From the IMG/VR virus record IMGVR_UViG_3300002180_000050, positions 1 to 29,509 of that record: 29,509 bases of DNA; one strand, given 5' to 3'. This document shows, in pieces, positions 7,288 to 26,557 of this stretch; positions within the stretch are counted from its first letter, which is position 1; every line of letters starts with the position of its first letter. Made by a program: the position numbers and the translations under genes. Origin of the DNA: a virus. Under the pieces are notes generated by a model that was not told the DNA's origin, searched no databases, and saw only the letters and a list, made by a program, of their open reading frames with translations.

Positions 7288-7782
7288 ATGATAAATATAT
7301 CTGAAATAGTAAAAGACTGGCCTGTAGTGGATGGGTGGAGTGTCAGCACTGGCGTCTCATGGTGCGCCAAAGGCTTTAGATTGAAGGTTGGCATAAACTG
7401 TTATATCAGCGACCGGGCTCATGTTGGCGACCGGGCTCATGTTGGCGAAGGGGCTAGTGTTGGCGAAGGGGCTCATGTTGGCGACCGGGCTCATGTTGGC
7501 GGCTGGGCTCATGTTGGCGAAGGGGCTCATGTTGGCGAAGGGGCTAGTGTTGGCGAAGGGGCTAGTGTTGTTTGTAATATTGGCTATGCAGACGGCTACG
7601 GCAAGGCGCTTTGCTCTTTTGAAGGGGTCGCATACATTGGGGCTGGATGCCAGTGGTTAACTCTGGATGATGCTATAGAGCATTGGTCTAATCACGACGA
7701 AGATAGAAGCATGACTCTATGTCTGATGGAATCGGCCAAAGCGATAGCCAAGCTGAAAGGGCTAAAAACTGGAGCATCATGA
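7288..7782 (+). CDS. Left-handed beta-helix (hexapeptide repeat) early protein (164 aa)
   Basis: First gene of the rightward early operon. ATG 7288 follows AACGGAGAAGAAAGC and is preferred over an in-frame GTG at 7252, which lies upstream of the predicted transcription start. The centre (about residues 41-94) is nine hexapeptides of the type V-G-D/E-R/G-A-H/S, which match the left-handed beta-helix rule. They would form three turns of a prism. The N-terminal 40 residues and the C-terminal 70 (VAYIGAGCQWLTLDDAIEHW and beyond) flank it. The helix alone does not show enzyme activity; structural, binding or DNA-mimic roles are all possible. Confidence 0.75.
   Translation: MINISEIVKDWPVVDGWSVSTGVSWCAKGFRLKVGINCYISDRAHVGDRAHVGEGASVGEGAHVGDRAHVGGWAHVGEGAHVGEGASVGEGASVVCNIGYADGYGKALCSFEGVAYIGAGCQWLTLDDAIEHWSNHDEDRSMTLCLMESAKAIAKLKGLKTGAS
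7408..7569 (+). repeat. Nine tandem 18-base repeats inside the beta-helix gene
   Basis: Units such as GGCGACCGGGCTCATGTT and GGCGAAGGGGCTAGTGTT follow each other without a gap and preserve frame. Only codons 2, 3 and 5 of the unit vary, and variants are shuffled among positions. This suggests unit duplication and recombination, so the copy number may differ between relatives. Confidence 0.9.
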
Positions 7783-8528: not shown

Positions 8529-9034
8529 TGAGTAAAACACATTATCGCAAAGTATTTAAAAGCGACCACCTTGGCGTGGCTGATCTTGAAGATTTTGTCG
8601 AAACAGGCAGCAATCTAAAGTTTACAATATCTCACGTCAACCAAGAGATTGGCGCAACTGTTGCAGGTAAAAAGATAAACGCCAACATCGCATATTTTAA
8701 CGAGAAAATTAAGCCTCTAGTGCTTAATGCCACTAATTCTAAAACAATGAGGAATTTAACGGGAAGCAGCTTTATTGATGACTGGGCTGATATTACGGTG
8801 CAGCTTTACATAGACAAGACCGCACAGCTAATGGGGGAAATTGTTGGCGGTGTGAGGATTAGTCCCAACAAGGTTAGTGCGACTAAAGAGGAGCTGACAC
8901 CAAACCATGCTAAGTGGGGCGGCGCTGTAGCCGCGTTCAAGCGCGACGGCAATCTAAAGGCCGTTATGGATGTAATGACTATAAGCAGAGAAAATCAGCA
9001 GCTTATAATCGACCAGGCTACCGACAATGTTTGA
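8525..9034 (+). CDS. Conserved phage protein paired with the exonuclease (169 aa)
   Basis: The features YRKVFKSDHLGVADLED, the motif NATNSKTMRNLTGSSFIDDW and a beta-strand IDKTAQLMGEIVGGVRI belong to a phage protein type that commonly precedes YqaJ-type exonucleases. Its beta-rich middle suits single-strand DNA binding and its position suits an accessory recombination factor, but I know of no experimental proof. The sequence does not look like a RecT or Bet annealing protein. It overlaps the exonuclease gene by eight bases and the preceding gene by ATGA. Confidence 0.6.
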   Translation: MMSKTHYRKVFKSDHLGVADLEDFVETGSNLKFTISHVNQEIGATVAGKKINANIAYFNEKIKPLVLNATNSKTMRNLTGSSFIDDWADITVQLYIDKTAQLMGEIVGGVRISPNKVSATKEELTPNHAKWGGAVAAFKRDGNLKAVMDVMTISRENQQLIIDQATDNV

Positions 9035-9662
9035 GTTCCACGATGTTGAGCAGAATAGCGACGCGTGGTTTGACCTTCGTGCAGGGAGGCTTACCAGCTC
9101 AAAGCTCGGCGTCGTGATGGCGAACTACGGGAAGGCGTTCGGCAATCCAGCCAAGCAGTACGCTGTTAATATCGCTGTAGAGCAAATTACCGGGAAGCCC
9201 ATGCCTAGCGGCTACCAGAACGAACACATGCAGCGCGGCCACGAACAGGAGCCTGTAGCCCGCATGATTTACGAGACCGACACATTCTCCACCGTAAGCA
9301 ATGGAGGGTTTTTCGGCTCTGAGTTCATTGGATGCTCACCTGACGGGATGGTATTCGACAGTGGTGTAATTGAGATCAAATCGGTAATACCTAGCGTTCA
9401 TTTTGCCAACATCAAAAGACAGTCGCTTGACCCGGCTTATCGCTGGCAGTGTATCGGCAATCTTAAATTCACCGGGAGGGACTGGCTAGACTTTGTGAGT
9501 TACTGCGCTGACTTTCCACCCGACAAGCAGTTATTCACGCATCGCATTGAACCTGATAGTTTTACCGATGATTTCAAGATGATTGATGAGCGTATCAGTG
9601 AGTTTAAGGCGCTGGTCGATAAGACTCGGCAAGATATTTTAAACCTCGACTACAGGACGTAA
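9027..9662 (+). CDS. YqaJ/lambda-type 5'-3' exonuclease (211 aa)
   Basis: The nuclease core is complete. GHEQEP (residues 71-76, E75) is followed by CSPDG (103-107, D106) and VIEIKS (114-119, E116 and K118), the D...ExK centre of the PD-(D/E)XK fold. RWQCIGNLKFTG (139-150) contains the conserved glutamine-bearing helix. These proteins resect DNA ends to give 3' single strands for annealing in phage recombination and concatemer formation. The length is normal for the family. It follows its likely DNA-binding partner with an eight-base overlap. Confidence 0.85.
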   Translation: MFEFHDVEQNSDAWFDLRAGRLTSSKLGVVMANYGKAFGNPAKQYAVNIAVEQITGKPMPSGYQNEHMQRGHEQEPVARMIYETDTFSTVSNGGFFGSEFIGCSPDGMVFDSGVIEIKSVIPSVHFANIKRQSLDPAYRWQCIGNLKFTGRDWLDFVSYCADFPPDKQLFTHRIEPDSFTDDFKMIDERISEFKALVDKTRQDILNLDYRT

Positions 9663-10342: not shown

Positions 10343-10366
10343 AAAAAAACCCCGCAATTAAGCGGG
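10343..10366 (-). terminator. Rho-independent terminator of the late operon
   Basis: CCCGC (10351-10355) and GCGGG (10362-10366) form a stem with a six-base loop, followed on the minus strand by seven T (10343-10349). It lies downstream of the portal gene and would end the 19 kb leftward late transcript. Confidence 0.7.
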
Positions 10367-10410
10367 AAAATGTGGGCCGTCGCCCTTTCGGAGAAACTAA
10401 AGGATAGCAC

Positions 10411-10590
10411 ATGAAACCAATATACGCATTTAATCTGTTTATATGGGGCATGGTGACGGGCCTAAACTTATTCGCGTTAAGCTGGCCCGATAATATGCCA
10501 GACCATGTTTACGGGTCGTGGCCGCTGGCTGTCGTGGGAATATGCGCGGCTATTTTTTGCTTTATAAAAGTGACGCGGCCTGATAATTAG
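10411..10590 (+). CDS. Small two-span membrane protein (59 aa)
   Basis: Two hydrophobic segments, about residues 5-25 (YAFNLFIWGMVTGLNLFALS) and 37-53 (WPLAVVGICAAIFCFIK), flank a short polar loop; the C-terminus is basic. ATG 10411 follows AAAGGATAGCAC. Small size and two spans fit a class II holin, but no lysis enzyme is next to it and it lies in the early operon, so an exclusion or other membrane role is equally possible. Its stop overlaps that of the portal gene by three bases. Confidence 0.6.
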   Translation: MKPIYAFNLFIWGMVTGLNLFALSWPDNMPDHVYGSWPLAVVGICAAIFCFIKVTRPDN

Positions 10591-12050
10591 TCAGTATTTA
10601 GCAGCGCATCGACCAGCCCCACTGTGCCATCGACTTTAGCCAGCCCATTATCGGCTAGCTTTTTCTGGTAGCTAGACAGTTGAGTGATAACGTCATACGG
10701 GTTTTGTCCGCGCTTTCTGATTACTTCGATCTCGCTGGCAAAGCCTGCATCAACTAGCGCCTTATTACCCATAGCTTCTTTTAGCGGATCAATCCACGGC
10801 ATTTGCTGGCCAACAAAGAGCGCGTCATTGACTGTCAGCGGGTCAATGTCTCGCGGCATAGGAACAACGCCGGAAAGATTAGCGACACGGACAAAGTTAG
10901 ACCATGTGGGATTAACTATAGCGCAAACAAAGTTATCCGTTTCGATAGCGTAATTAACCCACTGTTCGACAAGCTCCTGCCTTTGAGCTGAATATGTGCC
11001 GTCGTAGCTTTTAGATATAGAGCTGTAACTTGTGCCAAACCCAGCCGCCACTGCCTTTAGCTGGCCAGCCCTGAATGTAATTAAATTTGGGTTAGGTCGC
11101 TTTGAGTCGATCATTCCTATATCTTCGCCGGGGCCAAGGTCGTCAATAACCATTCCGGCCTCAAAGTCTATTTGGCGGTCGGTTTCGCTTGCGCTGTAGT
11201 CATCTGTTGACCCTTTGCGAATGTATGCCGTCAGCTTCGCCGCTATCTTTGCAGCAACCCGCTCGCTCTCTTCATAATCTTTGACGTCTTCGAGGCGATT
11301 TAAAATACTGGCGAATTTCGTTACGCCGCGCATTTGCCCGATTGATTCCAGCCCCGCATAGTGTAAAACCCTCGCCCACGGTACAGGCACAGTATCAACG
11401 GACATAGTATTTAAAGTTGTCTGCCACGGCGATTGCTTTATAACGTGCAATGCTTGCGGCCTGCCCCATCCATTAACCCTGATGCCCTGGATTATTTTGT
11501 CAGTCGTGTTGTTCAGGCCAAGTGGCACACTATCTGCGTCGATCATCTCAATAGAGAATGGAACTCGCGTTCCGTGCACTAGCCCGGCTTTATCACCGAA
11601 CACCATCTGGCCGAATACCTCGCCATCACGATAGCGCGACCATGCCAGCAGTCTTTGCACTTGGCTCCACTTGTGCCGCCCGGTCACATCAGGGCTTGCC
11701 GTCCAATCCTTCCACGCCTCGCGCAAATCGTTAGCGTATTGTTCGTGGACATTTCCTGACGTGTCTTTTGGCTGCGGCTCGATGCCAACACCATTGCCAA
11801 CAACATTGTTAACCATAGTTTCTAGGACGCCACGGGCTAAATCGTGGTTTAAAACAGCGTGACGGGCTTGCACTCTTAGATCATACGCCGACCGCTGCAC
11901 ATTTATGTTCTGCCCGCCGGACGACTTGCGAAAGTTTCGAAGTCTATTTGACTCGCTCGCCTCGTAAGATGCCGCAGCGCTGCGATAAGCTGCCCGCCTA
12001 GCTGCCTTTTCCGGCGATATGTAATTAATCGCTTTATCGAGGATGTTCAT
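10587..12050 (-). CDS. Lambda-family portal protein (487 aa)
   Basis: This forms the dodecameric ring at the capsid vertex through which DNA enters and leaves. The N-terminal ARRAAYRSAAASY, the stretch RLRNFRKSS, RSAYDLRVQARHAV (DLR...R.L pattern), the central WSRYRDGEVFGQM, IEMIDADSV and IQGIRVNGWGRPQALHV are those of the gpB/lambda portal family. The length is close to that of relatives. The start is ATG 12050, one base after the gpW stop; upstream in-frame codons overlap gpW. It is the last gene of the late operon, a displaced position, as it normally sits next to terL. The head protease is a separate protein here. Confidence 0.85.
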   Translation of the reverse strand: MNILDKAINYISPEKAARRAAYRSAAASYEASESNRLRNFRKSSGGQNINVQRSAYDLRVQARHAVLNHDLARGVLETMVNNVVGNGVGIEPQPKDTSGNVHEQYANDLREAWKDWTASPDVTGRHKWSQVQRLLAWSRYRDGEVFGQMVFGDKAGLVHGTRVPFSIEMIDADSVPLGLNNTTDKIIQGIRVNGWGRPQALHVIKQSPWQTTLNTMSVDTVPVPWARVLHYAGLESIGQMRGVTKFASILNRLEDVKDYEESERVAAKIAAKLTAYIRKGSTDDYSASETDRQIDFEAGMVIDDLGPGEDIGMIDSKRPNPNLITFRAGQLKAVAAGFGTSYSSISKSYDGTYSAQRQELVEQWVNYAIETDNFVCAIVNPTWSNFVRVANLSGVVPMPRDIDPLTVNDALFVGQQMPWIDPLKEAMGNKALVDAGFASEIEVIRKRGQNPYDVITQLSSYQKKLADNGLAKVDGTVGLVDALLNTD

Positions 12051-12051
12051 C

Positions 12052-12285
12052 TTAAAGCCCTGTATTAAGGTTAGCTTTTGCAAAAGAGAGTGACCCGCCA
12101 CCGGCCTCGCTTCGCAGCTTTCTCGCAAGATCTCGCTCTAACTTCGCTATCTCTGCGCGGACTTCTTTCAGCTCAGTCATTTTATGGCTTTTGCCATCTC
12201 GCGCCATTTCTTGCGCGCCAAGTATTTCAAGTTCTGCGGCTTTATATGCGGCGAGCCTTGTTTGAATTTCTGCTGATGTTGCCAT
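12052..12285 (-). CDS. gpW-like head-tail joining protein (77 aa)
   Basis: A small helical protein with the gpW signature: an N-terminal helix (TRLAAYKAAELEIL) is followed by a short lysine-rich hairpin (ARDGKSHKM) and a second helix (TELKEVRAEIAKLERDLA), then a disordered tail. gpW plugs the portal after packaging and provides the site for FII and tail attachment. It lies directly upstream of the portal gene, as W precedes B in lambda. ATG 12285 follows AGGTGATAAA. Confidence 0.8.
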   Translation of the reverse strand: MATSAEIQTRLAAYKAAELEILGAQEMARDGKSHKMTELKEVRAEIAKLERDLARKLRSEAGGGSLSFAKANLNTGL

Positions 12286-12293
12286 TTTATCAC

Positions 12294-14540
12294 CTAGTAA
12301 ACTGTTGCAATCGTGCTAATTTCATCTTCAAGATAGCCATAGGTTGAAACGTATGGTGCAGCACTTTCATCCGACCCAAATACCTCGCCATCAATCGTCT
12401 TTTCTTCTGACATTGCAAAGTCTGAAACAACAAATGAATCAGCCTTCTCAGCTATGCGCTCATCCTCGTTATTCTTTAATATTATATCAAACACACCATG
12501 CCCAAGCGTAACGTATGCAGATTCATCGCCAAACCGATAGTAAAGCTCGTCATACGATGAGAATACGACAGGCTTTGCAGCAACGGTCTTTATGGTTGTT
12601 TCACCTTGTTTGACATTAACGCCATTATGTTTAGCTGTATTCCCGCCGTATGAAATTACATTATTGTACGATTCTATCGCCGAGGATGCTGATTCTTTGT
12701 AGTATGTTGTTGTTTTTACAGAATGGAAATTGCCAATCTCCTCTATATAATCGCCATTTCCGAGTATTCTAGGCAGCACTGATATAAAGGTTATTGTTAG
12801 AGTGTTGTCATCTGTCGTGGTTGCGCCGTCCCATGTGTGCACCCTGGTTTCGTCACCGTCGATGTCAGCTATTCGCTTAGTATATATATCGCCTGCGTCT
12901 ATATCTGTTGTTCTTAAAGATGTGTTGGCTATCGTTTTTGTTCCCGATGTTGGGAAACCAAGCCCGCCCGGTCTCTCCCATGATCCAGACTCAACTGAAA
13001 GAGCATTATAAGCTGATTCGAGCGTCACTATCTGCTCAGTCCATGCTCCTGTTGATCCAGTCCAGAACACACCTATAGGCCCAGAATATCCGCCTGTTGT
13101 TGTGACTGTCCTAGTCCACGACCCAGACGTTCCAGAAGGGTCGTCTTCTGGCTCATTCCCAGTTTTAACCTCGCTAGTAACATTCGCGTCTGCCACGGCG
13201 TATTCCTGGCTAGAATCAACAACTGCGCTAAGGCCATCGCTTGAGATAATAGCCGAGCAATAACCATCGCCATCGAACCCGTATATTTTACCGCCGTCCG
13301 GCCTTGTGTAAATATGGATCGAATAGGGTAGTGTAGCTATAACCACGCTACCACTTAGGCCGTCAACAGGCGATGAATTCACAGTCCCGTCAGAAAATAC
13401 CGTTATAAACCTTCCGCCTGAAACCGCGAACACTGCCCTTATATGAATTGCTGATATAACGGGGCTGCCTTTTGAGAAGGCAAAGTTTGATGAGCTGCTA
13501 ATTATATACGGCTCTGTATCGTGCGCGAATTTATTAAGCGCCCCAAAGTTTGACAGTTTTATTTTGTCTAGCTGGTCATCGCCTCTCAATAAAACTGGCT
13601 CTATCCCTTCTCCAGCGGGATAAACAGAGACATAATCATCTCGCGGGCTTAAAGAATACGCAGGGCCGATAATAAACGGTGAGCACCCTCGCGGATTGCT
13701 CTCAAAACCTACAACCTTGGGGCTATCCCAGCTCTGCCCGTCGAACTTAACAACCACTCTATCATTCAATAAAAAGGCTGCCCGGTTGCAGGTCATGTAC
13801 TCTATTGGCACATCAATTAAATCTGTAGCCATGTTTATATCCAACCCTAACGTCGATGATGATGCCGCGTCAATTGTTACGCTGCAAGTTTGATCGGCGT
13901 TAAACCCAGTGATTTCGGCTAGCCGATATGTCGGCAAAAACTTCTGCCAGCCCGGTAATATCGCGGCATTGTAATAGCACTGATGGCCAAATTGAACTCC
14001 CCGCGCCTCTAAATGGCCATCGTCTGATACTGGCGCGCTGGCTCCGGGGGCGATTAGTATCAAGTCATTTTCGCCAGGCACTTCGATAGACGCCACATCA
14101 CCAGATGCGCCTACAGTTAAATCGCAGCACCACGCCTCCATGTCATTTTCAAGCACGAGGTCTGTTAGCTCTTTTTTATCTAATTCAAGAGCGGTCTTTT
14201 CAAACTCTAGCTCATTGACAAGAATTTCCTTTACAAGCAGATCGCCTCGCGCCCTCAATGCAACCTCAGTGGCGCTAGTAACAGCCGATCTCTGAGTCTG
14301 GTTGTCGTCAGTCGGGGCAAGAATAAAAGCGTCAATGGCTGAATTCATCACTGACAGCGCAGAATCTAGGGCGGCTTGTGCGGCATCTCGCTCAACTATC
14401 AGATTAGATAGGTCTGCGTCAATTTCCGCAATACGCGCATCAATTTCAGATACGCGCCCATCTCTTTGAACCGTTCCCGTGTCAACAGAAACACTATAAA
14501 GCCCCGCGCCTATGTGGTTGTTGACCGTAACTTCGCCCAT
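12294..14540 (-). CDS. Large distal tail protein with coiled coil (748 aa)
   Basis: Residues 29-75 (DARIAEIDADLSNLIVERDA and onward) and 95-130 form coiled-coil segments that suit a trimeric fibre stalk. The remainder is beta-rich with many serines and threonines. A cysteine-containing part near 135-225 (EAWCCDLTVG, GHQCYYNAAILPGW) precedes a VVGFESNPRG motif seen in phage tail-tip proteins. It probably belongs to the tail tip or fibre. The start at 14540 joins the preceding gene by TAATG. The exact family is not identified. Confidence 0.6.
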   Translation of the reverse strand: MGEVTVNNHIGAGLYSVSVDTGTVQRDGRVSEIDARIAEIDADLSNLIVERDAAQAALDSALSVMNSAIDAFILAPTDDNQTQRSAVTSATEVALRARGDLLVKEILVNELEFEKTALELDKKELTDLVLENDMEAWCCDLTVGASGDVASIEVPGENDLILIAPGASAPVSDDGHLEARGVQFGHQCYYNAAILPGWQKFLPTYRLAEITGFNADQTCSVTIDAASSSTLGLDINMATDLIDVPIEYMTCNRAAFLLNDRVVVKFDGQSWDSPKVVGFESNPRGCSPFIIGPAYSLSPRDDYVSVYPAGEGIEPVLLRGDDQLDKIKLSNFGALNKFAHDTEPYIISSSSNFAFSKGSPVISAIHIRAVFAVSGGRFITVFSDGTVNSSPVDGLSGSVVIATLPYSIHIYTRPDGGKIYGFDGDGYCSAIISSDGLSAVVDSSQEYAVADANVTSEVKTGNEPEDDPSGTSGSWTRTVTTTGGYSGPIGVFWTGSTGAWTEQIVTLESAYNALSVESGSWERPGGLGFPTSGTKTIANTSLRTTDIDAGDIYTKRIADIDGDETRVHTWDGATTTDDNTLTITFISVLPRILGNGDYIEEIGNFHSVKTTTYYKESASSAIESYNNVISYGGNTAKHNGVNVKQGETTIKTVAAKPVVFSSYDELYYRFGDESAYVTLGHGVFDIILKNNEDERIAEKADSFVVSDFAMSEEKTIDGEVFGSDESAAPYVSTYGYLEDEISTIATVY

Positions 14541-15205
14541 TACAACTGGCTCGCGCCTACGTCCATATATGCGCTGGTTTCATTAACAATGTAATTTATA
14601 TAACTTACTGTGAACTCCTCACTATCAACAATAGCATTCTGCCCCGGCCTTAAAAACCAATCTATACCACATCGAACACGAGTCCCGCCGTTGTATGTTG
14701 TTACCGTCTGTATATCTTGAAGCGTTCTCGTTGTTGTGTCTGACGGCGCGAGAGGAACAAAAACAGACTCGTAGCCTGATAGTGTCGCCGTGTAATTGAT
14801 CGCGCCTCTAGCCGCACTGAGCGACGTTAAAACACTCCTCGACATTTCCTGAATAAACACTTGCCCATCAAATGACGCTTCTCGATAAATCACAAAGGTC
14901 GGGCTAACCTCTGATGACAAAAAGCTAATGTAATCACCGCAAGCAGGCACAACAGCCTGTAAATAATTCGAGCGGTCTGTTTGCAGTGTGGCCTGCCATG
15001 ACGATATGGGTATTCTTTTTGTTTCTGTCCCGACAACATCCATAACGTAATTAATTACAGCGTAGTCGGGTATTAATCGGCTCCAGTCGTGGAACACTGA
15101 AAAAGCAGCAGCCCCCAATGGTGAGTCAACGGCGATATGTACAATTATCGGATTGTCGGCACTGCCGTTTATTGGCGCACCGTTTATCGAAAATAAATTA
15201 GGCAC
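14540..15205 (-). CDS. Distal tail structural protein (221 aa)
   Basis: A beta-rich protein of the tail-tip cluster. It starts MPNLFSINGAPINGS and has repeated strand patterns (VFIQEMSRSVLTSLSAARGA, then YTATLSGYESVFVP) that suit a baseplate or hub component. The start codon is GTG 15205, inside the end of the preceding gene (eight-base overlap), which argues for coupled expression. No clear homologue is recalled. Confidence 0.55.
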   Translation of the reverse strand: MPNLFSINGAPINGSADNPIIVHIAVDSPLGAAAFSVFHDWSRLIPDYAVINYVMDVVGTETKRIPISSWQATLQTDRSNYLQAVVPACGDYISFLSSEVSPTFVIYREASFDGQVFIQEMSRSVLTSLSAARGAINYTATLSGYESVFVPLAPSDTTTRTLQDIQTVTTYNGGTRVRCGIDWFLRPGQNAIVDSEEFTVSYINYIVNETSAYMDVGASQL

Positions 15206-16472
15206 TTAAAATCTCGGTGATCAGCCCTCTGATAACAAGGCGGCCTGTATAATTACCTGTTCCGGCTGTCACTAGCCCGCCCCCAAATTGCTTAGCCCCT
15301 TCGCTATTCGTCGGCTTTATCATTTCCGCCGCATAGTCGCCGGTTAGAAGCGTTGTCTGAGTCGAGGCTAGCCATTTAGTTAAATTGCCGTTTATGCCGA
15401 ACGATATGAAGGGTTGTGTTGTATCACTTACCGTTGTTGCGATAAACCCGAACTCTATAGGAGTGAACCGTAAATAATCCGGCATGATAAACTGGTAGTC
15501 TGTGGGGTCTATGCATATCCAGCTTAAATCACCATCACCAGTATTGGCCGCGCCTACAGTCGTAGTCCATGTTGGCTCGGTGCTTCCGCTTGTCCCTGAA
15601 CCAAAATAACTGCCGACCCACTCGTAACACAAATAGCACTTACCATTCGATACTGTTGGGAATATAACGTCACCGTGCTCGTATGACGTTGTTGCAGCCC
15701 ATGTTGGAGAATCTCCCAAGTTTATCGGGTCGCTGTAAATGATCATTTCTTGAGCCAAATGCTTCGCTGTTTGATCTTCGTCAACTGTCGCCGAGAACTC
15801 GCCAAAATGCGGAGCTATGTACTCAAACCCTCCAAGGTGGCGCTGGTAGTTCGCCGTTGGGTATTTATACGAATTTATATGCAATGCGTGTTCGGCAGTC
15901 TTTCCTGCATCACCTGTCCATTGGTTTATTGCTGTTTGCCGCGCTGATAATGCCTCGCTATAACCGCCGATTGCTATAGCCCTGCCGCCTGCGCCACCTG
16001 CGGCCTCTGAGTTCGACCCGATTGATATATCATACAGCCCAGTCGCTTTTGTTTTATATCCGGCGACAATCGACTGGCTGCCACTGGCGACCTGATCCGA
16101 CGACGTGCGCGAGGGCTGTAAATTAACTGACGCAAAGCCTTTAGCATCGCCACCATTATCGAACCCTTGCGGGAACTCATCTAACATGCCAGCCGTTACC
16201 CTTGCAGCCACAATGCTGCCTATCGGCCACTCTTTCGCAGTAGTGCTTTCTCTGCCCCTTGTGACAGTAAATATCAGCCCTGCCACCAGCGTGCATTGAA
16301 CAATCTCGTAGTCAGTATGGTCAAAAGGGTTAACGATTGTCAGATATAGAATCTCAGTTGCCGCTGGTGTCACAAGGTCGCCAACTGACGCCACCGTGGC
16401 CGTGAGGTCGCCAATAGACATAACCGCTGTCAGTTCGTCCTGATAGCTATTATAAAAAACGTACTTGCTCAT
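15198..16472 (-). CDS. Receptor-binding tail fibre with YadA-like head repeats (424 aa)
   Basis: The N-terminal 100 residues, with FTVTRGRESTTAKEWPIGS and RVTAGMLDEF, match the attachment domain of phage tail fibres. Residues 128-180 contain GSQSIVAGYKTKATG, ISIGSNSEAAG, and AIAIGGYSEALSARQTAIN, which follow the SIAIG-x-A-xA rule of trimeric autotransporter head repeats. Residues 258-322 (WAATTSYEHGDVIFP, CYLCYEWVG, EPTW, WICID) resemble a small carbohydrate-binding fold of the chitin-binding type. Together this indicates a trimeric adhesin that recognises a surface glycan. ATG 16472 lies close behind the preceding gene. Confidence 0.65.
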   Translation of the reverse strand: MSKYVFYNSYQDELTAVMSIGDLTATVASVGDLVTPAATEILYLTIVNPFDHTDYEIVQCTLVAGLIFTVTRGRESTTAKEWPIGSIVAARVTAGMLDEFPQGFDNGGDAKGFASVNLQPSRTSSDQVASGSQSIVAGYKTKATGLYDISIGSNSEAAGGAGGRAIAIGGYSEALSARQTAINQWTGDAGKTAEHALHINSYKYPTANYQRHLGGFEYIAPHFGEFSATVDEDQTAKHLAQEMIIYSDPINLGDSPTWAATTSYEHGDVIFPTVSNGKCYLCYEWVGSYFGSGTSGSTEPTWTTTVGAANTGDGDLSWICIDPTDYQFIMPDYLRFTPIEFGFIATTVSDTTQPFISFGINGNLTKWLASTQTTLLTGDYAAEMIKPTNSEGAKQFGGGLVTAGTGNYTGRLVIRGLITEILSA

Positions 16473-16475
16473 AAC

Positions 16476-16865
16476 CTATCCAATCGTTGCGGAAACTAGC
16501 GCAACTACCTGATTAATTTTAATTGCCGTGGTGTTTAATACAATATAACCCGCCACCGGAACAACACCGGAAGTGGCAGGAAGAGATAACAGTAAATTAT
16601 CATCGCCGTCTAAAAGTTCGCCGTATGTCGCTGTACCTGATGCCACCGCCTGAACTTGTGTAGGCTCTGTTATCGTCAATATCCCAGTTACACCAGACAC
16701 GCTGCCGCATGGGTCATTTAGTGTTATTGTCGCCAGCAAAACATCGCTATCGTCTTTTATTAACACCTTGCCCGCCGTCGCTGCGCCGTCAATAGTGTCA
16801 AGCATCCCCGTGTGCGCGCCTACAAGCGCGGCAACGGTATAAGTCGCTGATACTGGGGCTGGCAT
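16476..16865 (-). CDS. Small tail protein, fibre-side (129 aa)
   Basis: A beta-rich protein with the pattern LLATITLNDPCGSVSGVTGI followed by GTATYGELLDGDDNLL and VVPVAGYIVLNT. This belongs to small proteins seen just upstream of tail fibre genes in many siphoviruses; function unproven. ATG 16865 overlaps the preceding stop as TAATG. It is three bases from the fibre gene. Confidence 0.6.
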   Translation of the reverse strand: MPAPVSATYTVAALVGAHTGMLDTIDGAATAGKVLIKDDSDVLLATITLNDPCGSVSGVTGILTITEPTQVQAVASGTATYGELLDGDDNLLLSLPATSGVVPVAGYIVLNTTAIKINQVVALVSATIG

Positions 16866-17212
16866 TATGTTTTACTCAGTAGTGACAGGTTAAGCACAGA
16901 GTCGGCCCCGACTTGCGTGTAGCCGGTCGGCACTGCCTCAAAAAACCCGCTATGCCCGGAAACATTTAACCGACTGTAAGCCTCGACAATGCGCTCGATA
17001 TTCTCCTCATATTCTTTGCTTTTTGTTCGCCACATAACCACCGCCAACCTGTCTCCGTGACTTGATCCGCCGTCATTTACAGCCACCCCGCCATCGAGCG
17101 TTTTAACGACCGTGACGCGCCGGGTAATATCGCCAAAACTAGAAGATGGTTTCGCGTCAATAGTCACAAAACCATCTATGTCGTAGGTCTGAGTTGATAT
17201 TGTGATTATCAT
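16865..17212 (-). CDS. Tail protein downstream of tape measure (115 aa)
   Basis: Size and position match those of the minor tail or distal tail proteins that follow the tape measure gene (lambda M-like by position only). It is beta-rich, starting MIITISTQTYDIDGFVTIDA, with a polar middle (DGGSSHGDRL) and a helical C-terminal half (EENIERIVEAYSRL). The ATGA overlap with the tape measure stop indicates coupled translation. Confidence 0.55.
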   Translation of the reverse strand: MIITISTQTYDIDGFVTIDAKPSSSFGDITRRVTVVKTLDGGVAVNDGGSSHGDRLAVVMWRTKSKEYEENIERIVEAYSRLNVSGHSGFFEAVPTGYTQVGADSVLNLSLLSKT

Positions 17213-20175
17213 ATCGGCGCGGGGCTTCCCAACAGCATATCAAGGCCGTCAGAATTCACCCTTACTTGTATTGTTCTCAGTATTTCCCACATAAAGCCCT
17301 CTAAATGAGGTTGCAATCCTGCTCCGTCGATCTGAATTATACCATCCCCACGGTTTAGCGCCTTGGCCCTTGCTTCCATTTCTTTAATCTGCGCGGCGGT
17401 TAAGTCTTTCTGTAAATCAAGAGCCTCTTGCCTTCTGTCGTTTTCTATTTCAATCTGCCGCTCGATTTTAAATTGGTCGCTCAGGCTTGTATCACCGCCA
17501 TAGGCTAGGCCATAAAGGTCAGTTAATAACTGCCCGGTGCTTTCAATCGTGGTATTTATTGATTCATAAGCCGCTTGTATTTTGAGTGCGTCGGCCTCGA
17601 TCTGAGCGACGGCTATTTCTGTGTTGCCGCGTATGACTTCAGTCTGAATATCAACGCGGGCCTGTAGCATGACCTCGTTCCATCGCGCTTGGGCTGCTGC
17701 TGCTTTGTCTGCCTCTCTAGCTGCGTCGCTTATGGATTTAGCGGCCTTGCTTGTTTTGTTTTCTAGCGAGTCTGCGGCATTCGAGCTATTAATCAACCCT
17801 TGCTCGTAGCCGACAATCTTCCCGGTGGCCTCATCGTAAATAGGCACGATTCCGGTCATGGACTGCTCTAATTTTTCGTTTACATCAACAACCCCTGCAA
17901 GACCTTCTTTAAACCCGGTAACAACGTCATGAGTTTCTGACATGACAGGCTGTAGATTTAACTGCGCGGCCAACGCTGCAAACGATGATTTTGTAAACTC
18001 TTCAAAACTAAGGCCAGCTTTTACAACGCCATCCTCAAGCTGTAGCATTTGCGATGCAATCAGCGCCGATTCAATAGAAAAGTCCTCGACACCTTCTGCT
18101 AGTTTTTTTGCCGACTCTTCGTCGGCTACTTTTTTTACCGTGACACCAAAATCACTTACAGCGTCTTTCAGATCGCCTATCTTCTGCTCCGTGTCATTAA
18201 TTGCGTCATTCCCTTGCAATAGACCTGCAAGCCAGTCGCCAGTCGCTGCCCCAGCCTCACCAAAAGCACCTGGAAGCCCTGTAGTTAAAATCCTGATAAG
18301 GGGCAACAAAACGTCAGTCGTCGTGTCTACGTTTTCCTCTATCTTGGAAGGGTCTGTGATCTGCTCAACAAGGTCATATATCTCGCTACCTAGTGATGTA
18401 TCTCTCCCTGTAAGTGCCGATAGAGCGTCATCAATTCCATTTTTTAGAACAGTGCCAAGCGCATAACCAGCAGCCCCCGCCGCAGCCACAAGACCACCTT
18501 TTCCTAATAGCGCAATAAGCCCTGTGCTGCCTGTTAGCTTTGATGCCACCGCGCCAAGCCCACCGACAAGCCCTGCGCCTTGCTTAATAACCAAAAACTG
18601 CAATAGCGTTTCTATTGTAGGCATCAGGTTATTAAGGCCGGTGGAAAGTATATTCGCTTGTTCCGCGAACCCGCCGACCAGCCCCGCTGTTTTGAAAACC
18701 TCATCGCCTAGCTCGCTGGCGTCTGTAGCGAGGTCGCCAAACGTATCGACCATTGTTTCAAACGATTCAATCACGCCTCCTGTAAACGCGCTAAGACCAG
18801 CAAATGAATTGCCGATTAAGGTAATAGCCTGGGCCAGCCCGTTTGCTGTAGTCAGGTCTGCCCCGTCGAATATTTTGCCGAACGCATCACCTATTGACTC
18901 TAGCCCGCGAATAAACCCGCTTAGGTCAGCTTGATCGAATGCCGCTGGTATGTTTTTGGCTATCGTTGCTAGTGTTTTTTCAAGCCCCTCCATTTGGCTT
19001 TCAATATACTTTATAAAATCAGTAAGCGCCCCGTCTTGAACCTCTTTTCCAATGGCTAAAAATATAGCCCTGATTGCCTCTGCGATGCCGCCAAACTCAT
19101 CTAACAACGGATCACCGATTGAAATACTTAGCAGCGTGAATCCGTTCACAATTTTCTGGATGCTTAAATCAAAAGAGCCGGCCATCTTCTTAAATGCCGC
19201 GTCCGTAGCCCCTGAGCTGCCTGCCATAGCATCAAGGGTTTCGGCAAATTTTTCTGATGCGTTGCCTGTCAACTGCAAAACGGCTTTCATAGCCTCAGTG
19301 CTGCCAAACAGCCTTCTCATTTGCTCTTCGCTTCCGCCCGTGGCTTCGGCAACCGAGTTTAGAACGCTTTGCAGCCCGTTAGCCTTTACAGCCTGGGCAC
19401 TAAATTCTAGCCCTAGCTCTGCGGCTATGGTTCTTGCCTCGCTAGACGGCGCTATCATCGCAGTAAGGGCCGCATTAATAGCCGTAACCGCTTGCCCTGT
19501 CGGGATACCAACAGAGGTCAGCGCGGCAATAGATGCGTTTAAGTCAGAAAAGGGGATTTCTAGCGTTGCGGCTGTACCTGTCACATTTGACAATGCCGCT
19601 GATAATTCAGGGAGTGTGGTCTGGCCCTTCTCAACCGTCGTGAACAATATGTCACTAAACTCAGCGGCGTGTTCCATGCCAAGTCCGTAGGCATTGAGCG
19701 ACGATACTAGCACGACCATCGAGTCATTCAGGTCAGCCCTACCGCCTACCGCAAGCTGCTCTGCAACCCTTAGTGCGTCGATAGAATCGGTATAATCAAC
19801 CCCCGCAGAGATAGCGTTATACGTTGCTGCGGTGATTGTTTCGAGTGATTGTGTGCTAGTGCCCGCGTAATCTAAAAGCGACTGTTTGAAACGGTCTAAA
19901 TCTTCGACCGGCGCATCAATTAGTGTTGAAATTTCGCGGAATGCGGTGTCAAAACCACCGGCGGCAACAATCGACGCGGCTGTCATTGCTACGCCAACCG
20001 CCAAAATACCAGCCTCTAGCTTTACAGCACTGGTGGTAAAATCGGCGACTGGTTGTGTGGCTGATTGTACGCTCGAAGAGAATGAACTGACGCCATTGAC
20101 GGCGGATTGCGTGGCCAGTGCGGTTTTATCAACGCCGTTAAATATTATGTCTATCGTGCGTTGTGCATCAGCCAC
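17209..20175 (-). CDS. Tail tape measure protein (988 aa)
   Basis: It sets tail length and travels with the DNA into the host. The N-terminal third carries the TP901/PhageMin tail core: GGFDTAFREISTLIDAP, LETITAATYNAISAGVDYTD, and GIPTGQAVTAINAALTAMIAP. Hydrophobic stretches lie at about 51-75 and 530-590 (GLVAAAGAAGYALGTVL), as expected for a protein that enters the membrane. Near the C-terminus there is a long alanine-rich coiled coil (READKAAAAQARWNEV and onward). The start is GTG 20175, within the end of the frameshifted chaperone. By length it predicts a tail of about 150 nm, from the usual 0.15 nm per residue. Confidence 0.9.
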   Translation of the reverse strand: MADAQRTIDIIFNGVDKTALATQSAVNGVSSFSSSVQSATQPVADFTTSAVKLEAGILAVGVAMTAASIVAAGGFDTAFREISTLIDAPVEDLDRFKQSLLDYAGTSTQSLETITAATYNAISAGVDYTDSIDALRVAEQLAVGGRADLNDSMVVLVSSLNAYGLGMEHAAEFSDILFTTVEKGQTTLPELSAALSNVTGTAATLEIPFSDLNASIAALTSVGIPTGQAVTAINAALTAMIAPSSEARTIAAELGLEFSAQAVKANGLQSVLNSVAEATGGSEEQMRRLFGSTEAMKAVLQLTGNASEKFAETLDAMAGSSGATDAAFKKMAGSFDLSIQKIVNGFTLLSISIGDPLLDEFGGIAEAIRAIFLAIGKEVQDGALTDFIKYIESQMEGLEKTLATIAKNIPAAFDQADLSGFIRGLESIGDAFGKIFDGADLTTANGLAQAITLIGNSFAGLSAFTGGVIESFETMVDTFGDLATDASELGDEVFKTAGLVGGFAEQANILSTGLNNLMPTIETLLQFLVIKQGAGLVGGLGAVASKLTGSTGLIALLGKGGLVAAAGAAGYALGTVLKNGIDDALSALTGRDTSLGSEIYDLVEQITDPSKIEENVDTTTDVLLPLIRILTTGLPGAFGEAGAATGDWLAGLLQGNDAINDTEQKIGDLKDAVSDFGVTVKKVADEESAKKLAEGVEDFSIESALIASQMLQLEDGVVKAGLSFEEFTKSSFAALAAQLNLQPVMSETHDVVTGFKEGLAGVVDVNEKLEQSMTGIVPIYDEATGKIVGYEQGLINSSNAADSLENKTSKAAKSISDAAREADKAAAAQARWNEVMLQARVDIQTEVIRGNTEIAVAQIEADALKIQAAYESINTTIESTGQLLTDLYGLAYGGDTSLSDQFKIERQIEIENDRRQEALDLQKDLTAAQIKEMEARAKALNRGDGIIQIDGAGLQPHLEGFMWEILRTIQVRVNSDGLDMLLGSPAPI

Positions 20176-20356
20176 TTTTGAGAGCCTCTATTCTGTCGTT
20201 TTGCTCGCCGATATGGAGACCCCAGAGAGCTATTTCATCGTCCGTTAAATACCCCTCTGGGAATATATCAGGGCGCACTTCATAAAGGCATTTTCCTAGC
20301 CTGTCAGCGAGAGCAAGGCTTGCCCTTACGCTCCCGTCTTCCCAGAGGGCTTCGGC
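20168..20356 (-). CDS. -1 frame extension of the tail chaperone (T-like, 62 codons)
   Basis: It is read after a slip on G GGA AAG (minus strand, 20362-20356), identical to the lambda G/T slippery heptamer. The extension starts AEALWEDGSVRASLALADRL, has no start codon of its own, and ends at TGA 20168-20170. A GCCCT/AGGGC stem lies just downstream of the heptamer. The fusion (206 residues) would be made in small amount and recruit the tail tube protein to the tape measure during assembly, as known for lambda gpGT. Confidence 0.8.
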   Translation of the reverse strand, partial: AEALWEDGSVRASLALADRLGKCLYEVRPDIFPEGYLTDDEIALWGLHIGEQNDRIEALKSG

Positions 20357-20787
20357 TTTCCCGGCTCTTGACCTTGACCTGTTAGAGCGTCAATTTTATT
20401 GGTCAGCTCGTAGAAAATCACGGGGAAAGTTTCGGCCAGTTTCACAACCGCATCACGGGAATTTGCGTCTATCTTCGGCGACACTGATCCAAGCATTAAC
20501 GATTCAATTCTACGCGATACGTCTTGCGGAACATCAGCGCCCGTTAAGCCTAGCGCACTCGTTACCGCTTCGATCTTATCAGGCGCATTAGCCAGCGCAC
20601 CGATCAATGCCCGCGCTGTTTCAGTCCGGTCATAAGCCTGTTTGGTTTGCGCCACCTCGATAGCTGTCAGTCCTTTGACAGTCCACACGGCCTCCTCACC
20701 ATCGGCAAAATACTCTGCCAAGTCTGGGACTTTTACATCCTCAGTGCGTGGCGAGTATTTTGCCTGCGTGAATCTATCTAAGTCCAT
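20326..20787 (-). CDS. Tail assembly chaperone (G-like, 153 aa)
   Basis: Located between the major tail gene and the tape measure, as is lambda G. The main product ends in a flexible PGKPKPSGKTGA. Its middle (VWTVKGLTAIEVAQTKQAYD) is typical of siphovirus chaperones that coat the tape measure and are absent from the mature tail. A -1 slip at residues 143-144 makes the longer GT form. ATG 20787 overlaps the preceding stop as TAATG. Confidence 0.8.
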   Translation of the reverse strand: MDLDRFTQAKYSPRTEDVKVPDLAEYFADGEEAVWTVKGLTAIEVAQTKQAYDRTETARALIGALANAPDKIEAVTSALGLTGADVPQDVSRRIESLMLGSVSPKIDANSRDAVVKLAETFPVIFYELTNKIDALTGQGQEPGKPKPSGKTGA

Positions 20788-21779
20788 TAAGACAGCACGT
20801 CGATGGTTTTGCTTTCAGGTGTGATGGTGCACGATACGGGGCGTTTACCCTGTACCGGGTTGGCAATCGCCACACCTAAAATGCCCTGGGTGTATTGCTT
20901 AGGGAAAGAAGTGTCGCGGTCTGGTCGAAACTCAAACCATAGTGACTCGCCTTCCTGCTGTACAACAGCATCAGTAATGCCGTCAACACCCTGGAACGTG
21001 AATGTGGCCTGCCCCAATGATGAGCTAGATGAGCCGATAGGGCCATCGTAAGTATCTGTGCTCGACACGCTGTAGCTTGGCTTGGCTGGCACCCAGTCGC
21101 TTACGTTTGGCACTGCTGAAAATAAAGGAGTAGATCCTTTAATCCAAACCTTTTTCGTAACTGATGCCGTGTGAATCAATGGCAGCGCGTCGGCAAATGT
21201 AACTTCGCCTGTGCCGCTATCCAGTGAATAGACAGGGAAGTCACTACGCTCTTGATGAGATCCTACAACTTGATAAATCTCAGTGCTTAAAACATCGCCC
21301 GCCGTTACCGATGAGGTGCGAACTTGGCCGATCTCAACCGAACCAACAGGGATAAAGGGAGGGCCACCCGTCGCGCCTCGGGTTTCTGACAGCGTGGGGC
21401 CATCAGTACCGGAAACCGCAGCCAATGCGCCAGAGCTGTTAATAGTAATCGAGGTTACATTGATAATATCTGTAGTGATGCCGCGAGTAATTGAAACATT
21501 TCCAGACGATACTGACACATCGCCGTCGGCGTCTGCTCCTGTAGCTTCTGGCATTTTTGCGGTCAGCGCTGCGACAGTCACACTGTCATTGGTGCCGGTG
21601 TTAGGCGTGATGACTCCGCCCGTCAAAAGGCCGTAAGGGGCTACTAGCGCCTCCGATCCTGCCTTGTTTGAGATAGGAGAGAAAGACGCGGCAAACGTGG
21701 TGTAATCGCCGCTGTCCGTCATTTCTTCAAAAGCCTGTGCAACTTGCCCGGCTTCGTATTTTAAAATTGAACGACCCAT
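20787..21779 (-). CDS. Major tail tube protein (330 aa)
   Basis: A beta-rich protein in the V position. It has an N-terminal GRSILKYEAGQVAQAFEEMT, a threonine/serine-rich middle with GTNDSVTVAALTAKMP, and a C-terminal VSCTITPESKTIDV. The central GQATFTFQGVDGITDAVVQ is typical of hexameric tube subunits. It is longer than a minimal tube protein, so an added surface domain is likely in residues 60-200. ATG 21779 follows AGAGGATAAAATC. Confidence 0.75.
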   Translation of the reverse strand: MGRSILKYEAGQVAQAFEEMTDSGDYTTFAASFSPISNKAGSEALVAPYGLLTGGVITPNTGTNDSVTVAALTAKMPEATGADADGDVSVSSGNVSITRGITTDIINVTSITINSSGALAAVSGTDGPTLSETRGATGGPPFIPVGSVEIGQVRTSSVTAGDVLSTEIYQVVGSHQERSDFPVYSLDSGTGEVTFADALPLIHTASVTKKVWIKGSTPLFSAVPNVSDWVPAKPSYSVSSTDTYDGPIGSSSSSLGQATFTFQGVDGITDAVVQQEGESLWFEFRPDRDTSFPKQYTQGILGVAIANPVQGKRPVSCTITPESKTIDVLS

Positions 21780-21790
21780 GATTTTATCCT

Positions 21791-22201
21791 CTACGATAAT
21801 GTGTAAGGGTCGCCCCTCACATGACTGAATTTAATTGTAAATTGCGCTTCTGCGCCTACGAACGTGGAATTTAAAGTGATCCCGCCGCCGTCGTATTCTG
21901 TGTTTTGTGCTAATCCGCCGAACGTACTATCGGCGAACATTTCCGTAATAATTTCGGCTTGCAGTGCGTTGGCCTGCGCTCTTTGCGTATCGCCATCACG
22001 CCCAATTGTTGCCGCTGCTCTTGCTACTGCCACGGGTATTTCGATGATCGTTTCGTCATAGTCGCTGGTCGCTGTTTCAACATCGTCGAGCACTAGCGTT
22101 ATTGGTAGCTCTCGCTCATCTGTGGGGATTTCGGTGTTATATTCACCGCCTACCGCAAGGGTTATTGCTGCTAATAGTTGCTCGCGTATTGATACCGGCA
22201 T
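21791..22201 (-). CDS. Tail terminator, gpU-like (136 aa)
   Basis: gpU caps the tail tube and joins it to the head. The protein has the alpha/beta layout of this family: an N-terminal helix (IREQLLAAITLAVG), a central ELPITLVLDDVET, the strand TIIEIPVAVARAAA, a helix AQANALQAEIITEMF, and a final strand AQFTIKFSHVRGDPYTL. The position between Z and the major tail gene matches lambda. ATG 22201 is two bases beyond the preceding stop. Confidence 0.7.
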   Translation of the reverse strand: MPVSIREQLLAAITLAVGGEYNTEIPTDERELPITLVLDDVETATSDYDETIIEIPVAVARAAATIGRDGDTQRAQANALQAEIITEMFADSTFGGLAQNTEYDGGGITLNSTFVGAEAQFTIKFSHVRGDPYTLS

Positions 22202-22203
22202 AG

Positions 22204-22824
22204 CTAGACCGGGTACTTCTTCTGCAATAAGTAATTAATTGATTCGAGCATTTTCGACTCGTAAATCTCTTCGGCTTCAACGTCTTCCTTGATGTTGCCA
22301 AACGCCTGCGATACCGATGGCCCATACAGCAATAGCAATTTTCCGCCTTCCGGCCCTGCTGTCTTCCTGCGCTGTGCTATTGATACGATCCCGCTTTTCA
22401 GCAAGATATAAAACGGCTTTCCTGTGCCGTCAGAGCTGCCCTGCACAATCTTTCGCTTGCCAGGTGTTACCTCTACACGCATGCCTCGCGGGGGCACTGG
22501 GGGCGCTTGGCTGCCCGTCCATGTATTATTTCTAATTGCTGGCGTGGTCGAATATCTCGATAACAACCGGCCTTTTTTCTTTGCTTTTACGCGGCCTTGT
22601 AAATTTGAGTTGGTCGCCTTGCTTTTAATGTCGAGCTTGTCGCGTACTTCACCAGCTTTGATTTTTAGCTCTGCTCGAATGCCAACACTTGCCGCAGTTC
22701 TGGCAATCGGTAATGATTTATTGATCGCAATACGAAACGCATTTTTTGAATTGCCGCCGACAAACTCCAAAAGACTGATCGCGTCTTTTACTTGACCTTG
22801 ATTGACTTCGACAGCGTTCGTCAT
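22204..22824 (-). CDS. Minor tail protein Z-like (206 aa)
   Basis: The basic N-terminal half, with RIAINKSLPIARTAASVGIR and the charged AKKKGRLLSRYS, and the later GMRVEVTPGKRKIVQGS and GKPFYILLKSGIVSIAQRR match the Z family, needed for correct head-to-tail joining in lambda. The C-terminus is acidic and helical. It sits between FII and U, the lambda order. ATG 22824 overlaps the preceding stop as ATGA. Confidence 0.75.
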   Translation of the reverse strand: MTNAVEVNQGQVKDAISLLEFVGGNSKNAFRIAINKSLPIARTAASVGIRAELKIKAGEVRDKLDIKSKATNSNLQGRVKAKKKGRLLSRYSTTPAIRNNTWTGSQAPPVPPRGMRVEVTPGKRKIVQGSSDGTGKPFYILLKSGIVSIAQRRKTAGPEGGKLLLLYGPSVSQAFGNIKEDVEAEEIYESKMLESINYLLQKKYPV

Positions 22825-23138
22825 GCTTTAACCGTCATGCTGTATTCAATGCCGTTATCTTTAAACACGTCATCAACGTGATATGTCGTACTACCCACTA
22901 AAAACTGATGATCTTTAAACGGCCTGATCGGTATTTCTGACTTTCTGACGCTAACCACGGCTTCCACCCCGGCTACGTCAACACCGGCTTCTGAATACGT
23001 TTGCAGGTCTTTATCAACCAACACCAAGCAGCTCGCGTTAATGACAACCGAGTCTTCGTCGAGAGCGATGGCAGCATCACCATGAAAGTTGTAGATGCTG
23101 CCATTTCTCGAATCAAACTTGTCGTCAAAAGAACTCAC
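22821..23138 (-). CDS. Head-tail joining protein, FII-like (105 aa)
   Basis: Length, position and beta-rich build fit gpFII, which completes the head by binding gpW and receives the tail. The C-terminal part (RPFKDHQFLVGSTTYHVDDV, then EYSMTVKA) has the recurrent pattern of that family. The start codon is GTG 23138, joined to the preceding stop as TAGTG. The similarity is moderate. Confidence 0.65.
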   Translation of the reverse strand: MSSFDDKFDSRNGSIYNFHGDAAIALDEDSVVINASCLVLVDKDLQTYSEAGVDVAGVEAVVSVRKSEIPIRPFKDHQFLVGSTTYHVDDVFKDNGIEYSMTVKA

Positions 23139-23506
23139 TAAGCAACGGTGCCAGGTGTGCCGGTCAGCTTAACGGCGATGGTAGTAACACCATTACCGGC
23201 AGCCTCAGCCGCGAAACAAGCCGCGCCCGTTACATCGCCAGTTGCAGGTGTTGCTGCGTTGTCATCAAAAGCACCAGCCGACACATCCCATGTCAGGCTT
23301 TCGCCTTGGGCGATTACAGCCGCAGATACTTTGGCGAAGTTATAAACACCAGTTACAGCAACCGCGCCTGTGCCTGTAGTGGCGGCAATATCAACCAGGG
23401 CAACGCCAAGCGTTTCGCCCATAACCACTAAATCACCAGAGCTGATGGCAGAGCCTGAGTTTGAATAATCAATGACGTTGCCGTCTTGTACAAAATTTGT
23501 AGCCAT
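23138..23506 (-). CDS. Capsid decoration protein, DUF2190-like (122 aa)
   Basis: The opening MATNFVQDGNVIDYSNSGSA and the continuing ISSGDLVVMGETLGVALVDI are typical of DUF2190 proteins, small trimeric beta proteins that bind the outside of the expanded capsid, filling the place of lambda D. The C-terminal half is alanine-rich with TIAVKLTGTPGTV. The gene follows the capsid fusion directly. ATG 23506 follows GAGGGTTTAGAAA. Confidence 0.8.
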   Translation of the reverse strand: MATNFVQDGNVIDYSNSGSAISSGDLVVMGETLGVALVDIAATTGTGAVAVTGVYNFAKVSAAVIAQGESLTWDVSAGAFDDNAATPATGDVTGAACFAAEAAGNGVTTIAVKLTGTPGTVA

Positions 23507-25841: not shown

Positions 25842-26039
25842 ATGGCTAAAGTAATACAAGAAGTGTTGGAAGAATCAATGAAGGCTATAGCGCAGCATTA
25901 CGCTGACAAAATGATCGCACAAGGCATTACGCCCACTAAGGCGCAAATTGAAGAATCTCTACAGAACAACTGGGAAAAAGTGAGCAAGGAAGTGTCAGAA
26001 CTTTATGCGCAGGTTATGGCTCAGTTGGAGGCGGCGTGA
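25842..26039 (+). CDS. Small helical protein, first gene of inverted island (65 aa)
   Basis: ATG 25842 follows GCGGAGAAATAAA. The product is entirely helical and mildly acidic (MAKVIQEVLEESMKAIAQHY and onward, ending VSELYAQVMAQLEAA). No fold family is recognised. The next gene starts within its stop (GTGA). It has its own promoter and opposes the late operon. Confidence 0.6.
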   Translation: MAKVIQEVLEESMKAIAQHYADKMIAQGITPTKAQIEESLQNNWEKVSKEVSELYAQVMAQLEAA

Positions 26040-26179
26040 GTCGCCGCTTAACATGGGCGCAGGATGGATATGGTCGCAACTTCCTACATTACAGTGATGA
26101 GCTTATTGTTATTTTATGCGGCCTGCCAGGCACTTCAGGAATGGAGCTTAAATGGTTGCACGAGGATTATGGGCCATGA
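26036..26179 (+). CDS. Small hypothetical protein (47 aa)
   Basis: The start is GTG 26036, in a GTGA overlap with the preceding stop and behind GGAGGCG. The product reads SRRLTWAQDGYGRNFLHY, then ELIVILCGLPGTSGMELKWL and a short acidic end. Both ends overlap neighbours, which supports the frame. No function is recognised. Confidence 0.5.
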   Translation: MSRRLTWAQDGYGRNFLHYSDELIVILCGLPGTSGMELKWLHEDYGP

Positions 26180-26349
26180 CGCCATCACAACAAGCGATAG
26201 AAGCAGGGCTGGAAAGCCTTGCTCAGGTCATAAAGCTAACAGGGCAAAGCCGCCAAACGCTAGCGAACTGGCAGCGAGACAAGCCCGACCTGTTTAGAAT
26301 TGTCTTAACAGGGTGTGCAACTGAGATCCATGGAGAAAATAATGACTAA
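26176..26349 (+). CDS. Small helix-turn-helix protein of the island (57 aa)
   Basis: The start is ATG 26176 (ATGA overlap with the preceding stop). Residues 15-45, with SLAQVIKLTGQSRQTLANWQ and then KPDLFRIVLTGC, match a recurrent small phage DNA-binding protein with one helix-turn-helix. It could govern the island promoter. An eight-base overlap leads to the next gene. Confidence 0.65.
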   Translation: MTPSQQAIEAGLESLAQVIKLTGQSRQTLANWQRDKPDLFRIVLTGCATEIHGENND

Positions 26350-26557
26350 AGTATATCTTCAAAACTCAACACAAAAACGCGACGATCTAAAAACTAGCAA
26401 CGAGCGCGCCGAATTCGATTTTAAGAAAATGTACTTGAATGCGATAAATCGGGATCAGTTCGACGATGACGGCACTCTGAAAATCACCGCTGGAATAATT
26501 GAAGGGTTTTACGTTGCCGGCGAGTCTAGCCCCGAATTATTCGGTACACGGTTCTAG
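26342..26557 (+). CDS. Small hypothetical protein (71 aa), convergent with the Mor-like gene
   Basis: ATG 26342 follows ATGGAGAAAATA within the end of the preceding gene. The product is charged (LQNSTQKRDDLKTSNERAEF, then NAINRDQFDDDGTLKIT) and ends GESSPELFGTRF. Its last 32 bases overlap those of the Mor-like gene on the opposite strand. It is unrecognised. Confidence 0.6.
   Translation: MTKVYLQNSTQKRDDLKTSNERAEFDFKKMYLNAINRDQFDDDGTLKITAGIIEGFYVAGESSPELFGTRF

Follow-up and report, generated by a model that had tools for sequence, protein, structure and literature searches.

In phages of the lambda type (lambda, Gifsy-2, F10, MD8, mEp213) the late operon reads terS-terL-W-portal-protease/capsid-tail. 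This terminase-portal-capsid order serves to find and name phage genes, and a common explanation for it is that head proteins which interact should be made together. Departures from it have been described. In phiCbK-like phages terL and portal are 18–20 kb apart (PMC3556154), and large insertions between the two genes are common in actinophages (PMC7302621). As regards the partners of the portal, type-1 necks carry an adaptor between the portal and the head-closure protein, and in a few of them gpW stands in place of Ad1 (PMC4362835).

Here, we describe a viral DNA stretch of 29,509 b (the window, meaning the whole stretch analysed), an IMG/VR record of an uncultivated phage, whose late region shares with the lambda-type operons a GpA-type terminase, a lambda-family portal and an adaptor directly upstream of the portal, together with a protease-capsid fusion as in F10 and MD8. 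Unlike in the lambda-type operons, however, the adaptor-portal pair is located after all tail genes, far from terminase and capsid, and the portal is thus not found between the terminase and the protease/capsid gene. The late genes are all on the minus strand, from terS through portal (Table 1). The adaptor begins 14.5 kb past the 3′ end of terL, the portal lies about 11–11.5 kb past the protease-capsid gene and the span from terS to the end of the portal is 18.8 kb. These distances agree with the original prediction, according to which the two genes keep their mutual order downstream of all tail genes, some 14 kb from terL and at the end of a region of about 19 kb. As shown below, this is a real and recurrent rearrangement of a well-known operon, and an order that is usually treated as fixed can change.

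Table 1. Features of the late region and its surroundings (positions in the window).
Feature	Position	Strand	Evidence or remark
Terminator-like hairpin	10350..10367	-	intrinsic type, T7 tail, ~220 bp past portal stop; candidate late-operon end
Portal protein, 487 aa	10587..12050	-	sole copy; PF05136 and phrog_21 matches
Head-tail adaptor ("gpW"), 77 aa	12052..12285	-	phrog_118, 1.4e-11; conserved in relatives
t748, last tail-module gene	12294..14540	-	3′ end is landing site A; 8 bp from adaptor
Neck and tail genes	12294..23138		tail genes 12294..22824
t115/t129 boundary	16865	-	empty counterpart of landing site B
Tape-measure protein, 988 aa	17209..20175	-	phrog_991, 1.3e-52
t105/neck boundary	22821..22824	-	empty counterpart of landing site C
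Decoration gene	23138..23506
ClpP-like protease fused to major capsid protein, 683 aa	23558..25609	-	phrog_133, 1.4e-159; PF00574, PF25209
Three small ORFs	25842..26039; 26152..26349; 26315..26557	+	at ancestral adaptor-portal site
Mor/C-type transcription activator, 90 aa	26526..26798	-	PF08765, phrog_532, 1rr7; ancestral terL neighbour
Terminase large subunit, terL, 699 aa	26795..28894	-	phrog_15, 4.2e-192
Terminase small subunit, terS, 172 aa	28891..29409	-	phrog_141, 6.2e-20

Identity of the displaced genes

The portal product matched PF05136 (lambda-family portal) with an E-value of 5.5e-85 and a score of 286 bits against a curated cut-off of 32.9, covering profile positions 2–351 of 354, and phrog_21 with 1.9e-96. 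A profile search also returned solved lambda-type portals, namely 8k38 (lambda portal protein B, 2.2e-8) and 8gtd (2.6e-19). Its start is the conserved ATG at 12050, which the ORF list extends upstream to 12128.

The gene directly upstream, separated from the portal by 1 bp, had been predicted as gpW. Its assignment as a head-tail adaptor stands, but membership of the gpW family was not recovered: there was no Pfam match, gpW did not appear among the PDB sequence matches and a fold search (AlphaFold and Foldseek) gave nothing significant, gpW being absent from the best 50 fold matches. The predicted model has two helices (mean pLDDT 71.7). In consequence, the product is best called an adaptor, gpW proper not being confirmed. 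Both genes are under purifying selection, since codon positions 1–2 differ far less than third positions between the window and its independent relative IMGVR_UViG_3300030037_000020 (0.167 against 0.598 for the portal and 0.240 against 0.558 for the adaptor, with synonymous sites saturated).

The displaced order recurs in an independent contig

Could such an order result from a faulty assembly? The record IMGVR_UViG_3300027852_000071 (G001, 43,959 b) holds the entire window at 100% identity over 29,509 b (G001:14443-43951); it possibly comes from the same or a related sample and is hence a weak independent test. Much stronger is IMGVR_UViG_3300030037_000020 (G049, or L054 among the loci), an independent contig whose proteins have 76% (portal), 80% (major-tail-like) and 46% (t748) identity to those of the window. 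There, the genes follow the identical order, tape measure-t115-t129-t424-t221-t748-adaptor-portal, and the gap between t748 and the adaptor is 9 bp compared with 8 bp in the window. The junction at 12285-12294, where a mis-assembly might have been suspected, is therefore real, as is the displaced order. An assembly error or a chimeric contig would be favoured by the fact that the order is known from metagenome contigs only, yet we consider it extremely improbable, because the two possibly related records are identical over 29.5 kb, order and junctions recur in a contig at 46–76% protein identity and additional contigs read terL-regulator-capsid with no portal between. One of these is G002 (terL identity 68%), which ends inside t748. 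A circular permutation of the ordinary order was also discarded, since ~25 kb of the 43,959-b record lie between the portal and the opposite contig end.

The window being a fragment, the gene at 10587 might alternatively be a spare copy, with a second portal near terL elsewhere in the genome. This reading is again extremely improbable: the window has only one PF05136 match, and thus one portal, the longer G001 (43,959 b) has no more than that, and the interval from terL to capsid has no portal. The second intact portal that would have spoken against the original prediction was therefore not found in either, and the comparison with the nearest relatives by portal and terL that it called for bore out the displaced order in an independent genome.

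Three landing sites in related phages

To place the window among its relatives, 361 loci were gathered by searching viral contigs for terL, portal, capsid and tail genes and bacterial genomes for the capsid gene, and their gene order was mapped with profiles built from the proteins of the window. The portal was between terL and capsid in 213 of the 361 loci. In 21 loci, corresponding to about 14 distinct records, it was not; these become 15 with G049, which was added separately because its contig starts inside the capsid gene. The portal could be located in seven of the 15 displaced records (counting the phage of the window once), at three different sites. Site A, after t748, is occupied in four records (window/G001, G049, G036 and G037); site B, between t115 and t129 just after the tape measure, in two (G004 and G045); and site C, between t105 and the neck gene in the decoration/neck region, in one (L191). 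The other eight (G002, L286, L259, L203, L270, L007, L193 and L006) have terL and capsid without a portal between them and end before any portal. The displaced records are all metagenome contigs save one contig of a Rhodoferax MAG, which also ends before any portal. Searches of whole records found a single portal in every record that has one. Homologues of t748, for which no PHROG or Pfam family was matched, close the tail module in relatives.

Several other maps that looked displaced were rejected. In L050/G033 the adaptor, portal and capsid genes remain adjacent, indicating an insertion and not a move: ~8 kb lie between the regulator and the adaptor-portal-capsid block (L050:12315-20489), in another lineage. 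In L275/G038 and L272/G039 the portal is 1–2 kb from terL, and large inserts or contig ends explain the maps. A separate observation concerns terL, which is interrupted in frame by inteins in three relatives (L007:1240-3876, L006 and G037, the latter as L361/L362) inside the Walker A motif (GPARTGK/C...VPTHN/T). L007 has a mini-intein of ~150 aa and G037 a full intein that includes a LAGLIDADG-like endonuclease region; the terL of the window has none.

At all sites adaptor and portal are adjacent or overlapping, and every displaced record with a portal has one adaptor, directly upstream of it. The gaps to the neighbouring genes are 3–37 bp or are replaced by overlaps. At site A, t748 and adaptor are separated by 8 bp in the window, 9 bp in G049 and 24 bp in G036. 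At site B, 37 bp separate t115 from the adaptor and 5 bp the portal from t129 in G004, the latter gap being 3 bp in G045. At site C, the start of the adaptor overlaps the stop of t105. Neither repeats nor transposase genes were seen at the inspected junctions.

The ancestral site

The place that the pair has left can be recognised by its neighbours. Directly after terL, inside the late operon, the window encodes a Mor/C-type activator (PF08765, 49.7 bits with a cut-off of 24.9; phrog_532, 4.4e-15; PDB 1rr7, Mor, 5.4e-6). The same gene sits between terL and adaptor in the canonical relatives also, which indicates that the ancestral order was terL-regulator-adaptor-portal-protease/capsid and excludes that the regulator replaced the portal at its old place. 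A Mu-like dyad pattern was not enriched in the window (2 matches, with 0.68 expected).

In the window, the old site measures ~0.9 kb and holds the three opposite-strand ORFs, the middle one being regulator-like by a weak match (phrog_409, 7.1e-5). In site-B phages regulator and capsid are separated by 69–85 bp, and L259, L203, L270 and G002 carry other, unrelated inserts. No remnants of portal or adaptor were found at the old sites.

Expression of the displaced pair

The hairpin just past the portal makes it probable that the adaptor-portal pair ends the late operon. Terminator and promoter counts in the region were not above those in shuffled sequences, this hairpin being among the better ones. 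In G049 the late strand runs on past the portal into a membrane-protein ORF. Rfam and tRNA searches gave no matches. On the opposite strand, before the region discussed here, an 18-bp tandem repeat (7421-7660) generates an ORF of LATGLMLAKG units that is probably low complexity and not a gene.

Alternatively, a promoter within the last tail gene might drive the portal separately, in which case it would not be expressed as the tail end of one long late transcript. A sigma-70-like match of 10/12 positions is indeed present inside t748 (13312-13285, minus strand). Nevertheless, promoter-like matches are no commoner than in shuffles (20 versus 22.1) and just 8 bp separate t748 from the adaptor, so that a separate expression of the portal seems unlikely. 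Whether or not the pair is the last of a long message, the late region may comprise more than one transcription unit, since the opposing ORFs intervene between regulator and capsid genes; together with the Mor-type regulator, these ORFs hint that a second late unit may begin upstream of the capsid gene.

Would a portal encoded so far downstream come too late? The original prediction had raised this concern, which presupposes one continuous 19-kb message, and the distal location on which it was founded is correct, but the puzzle is a weak one. From the capsid start to the portal start there are 13.6 kb, and transcription proceeds at 40–50 nt/s, giving a delay of about 5 minutes, which is modest. 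Because assembly proteins would pool in the cytoplasm, proheads could still form with the portal arriving a few minutes late; a distal position would even suit a 12-copy protein such as the portal. Besides, phiCbK also splits terL and portal by 18–20 kb.

How the pair may have moved

Taken together, we propose that adaptor and portal form a functional two-gene unit that was taken from its ancestral place and is now the 3′ end of the late operon, a reading that we hold to be very probable. The pair sits after the last tail gene with seamless junctions and with its own start signals, and it would be translated from the late mRNA like its neighbours. Illegitimate recombination may account for the move: a duplicate of the pair would have inserted between two genes of the late operon, after which the original would have been lost, presumably with no transposase or repeats involved. 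The only constraints would be that the pair remains on the late strand and that its two genes are not separated. The phage also encodes a RecE/YqaJ-type exonuclease and NinG/NinB-like recombination genes (window 9027-9662, plus strand; G001:10535-11852), and phage-borne recombination functions of this kind could have aided such rearrangements.

How many times did this happen? In the portal tree, six displaced portals from sites A, B and C form one clade (support 96/89) next to the canonical L004/L281/L184, and the portal of G037 (L279) groups with the canonical L283/L289/L196/L200 (100/99). Forcing all seven displaced portals together cost 252 log-likelihood units (AU p 9e-53); the tested group was chosen after seeing the portal tree, and the effect is huge. 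The adaptor of G037 belongs to phrog_2545 instead of phrog_118, a family that it shares with the canonical L283/L289/L196/L200 phages. Because both its adaptor family and its portal clade differ, two different adaptor-portal pairs reached site A. A single origin of the displacement is therefore rejected, adaptor and portal having left their ancestral place independently at least twice, and within the six-portal clade the site changed at least once more. In addition, L232 and L276, both with the pair at site B, group as sisters by terL and by capsid but not by portal, a conflict between trees suggesting that the pair has also been exchanged between phages. Displaced and canonical phages are intermixed in the tail tree. 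The terL and capsid trees have weak branches, so that the number of moves given here is a minimum.

These trees also bear on a different history, in which the displaced pair came from another phage. It would have entered the late operon as a second adaptor-portal cassette, the resident one being lost later, so that the pair was replaced as well as moved. G037, with another adaptor family and a portal of another clade at the same site A, is what such a history would produce, and so is L232, whose terL and capsid cluster with those of L276 whereas its portal clusters with that of the window, as expected from cassette exchange. Except for these two, however, the displaced portals are one clade near the canonical L004, whose terL is also close, and remnants of a resident copy were not found. 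We consider replacement by a foreign pair possible, although somewhat doubtful, and relocation of the phage's own unit remains our preferred reading. More generally, adaptor and portal may behave as a portable "connector cassette" that is exchanged and re-sited as a unit, limited by strand and linkage and not by the timing of head assembly, and this repeatedly in one loose phage group that combines a certain tail module with a protease-capsid fusion; we regard the chances of this broader view as evenly balanced.

Comparison with known phages

How unusual is the arrangement? In a prophage control of 200 genomes of one bacterial order, all 28 PF05136/PF05876 pairs on one contig were 1.3–6.0 kb apart, domain to domain, and all 22 cultured-phage records found in both the portal and the terL match lists have the two genes within 2 kb. 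No cultured phage with the displaced order was found, nor did a search of open-access full texts turn up a report of adaptor and portal lying together downstream of the tail genes, or occupying alternative sites among relatives. The original prediction called the broken order one of the most conserved in tailed phages; this is true within the lambda-type family, as the two controls indicate, but has to be tempered by the phiCbK-like exceptions and the common insertions mentioned above. The occurrence of the portal at its ancestral and at three other places represents a natural experiment on how gene order relates to prohead nucleation and portal dose, and is a caution for annotation pipelines that call portals by synteny.

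The nearest described phages make the difference evident. By tail genes (the 330-aa major-tail-like protein and t221), the nearest annotated ones are Marinobacter phage PS3 (MF959999) and Caudoviricetes sp. ctUtU524 (MW202621), in which, unlike in the window, terL, a small gene and the portal are adjacent and upstream of the capsid. By terL (55%), the nearest cultured relative is Curvibacter phage PCA1 (OP588919), with a canonical terS-terL-adaptor-portal order. In the phiCbK-like phages (PMC3556154) the structural module starts with the portal and continues with the capsid, so that the link to the terminase alone is lost; their portal belongs to a different family and does not alternate in position among phiCbK relatives, whereas the pair described here has left both terminase and capsid.
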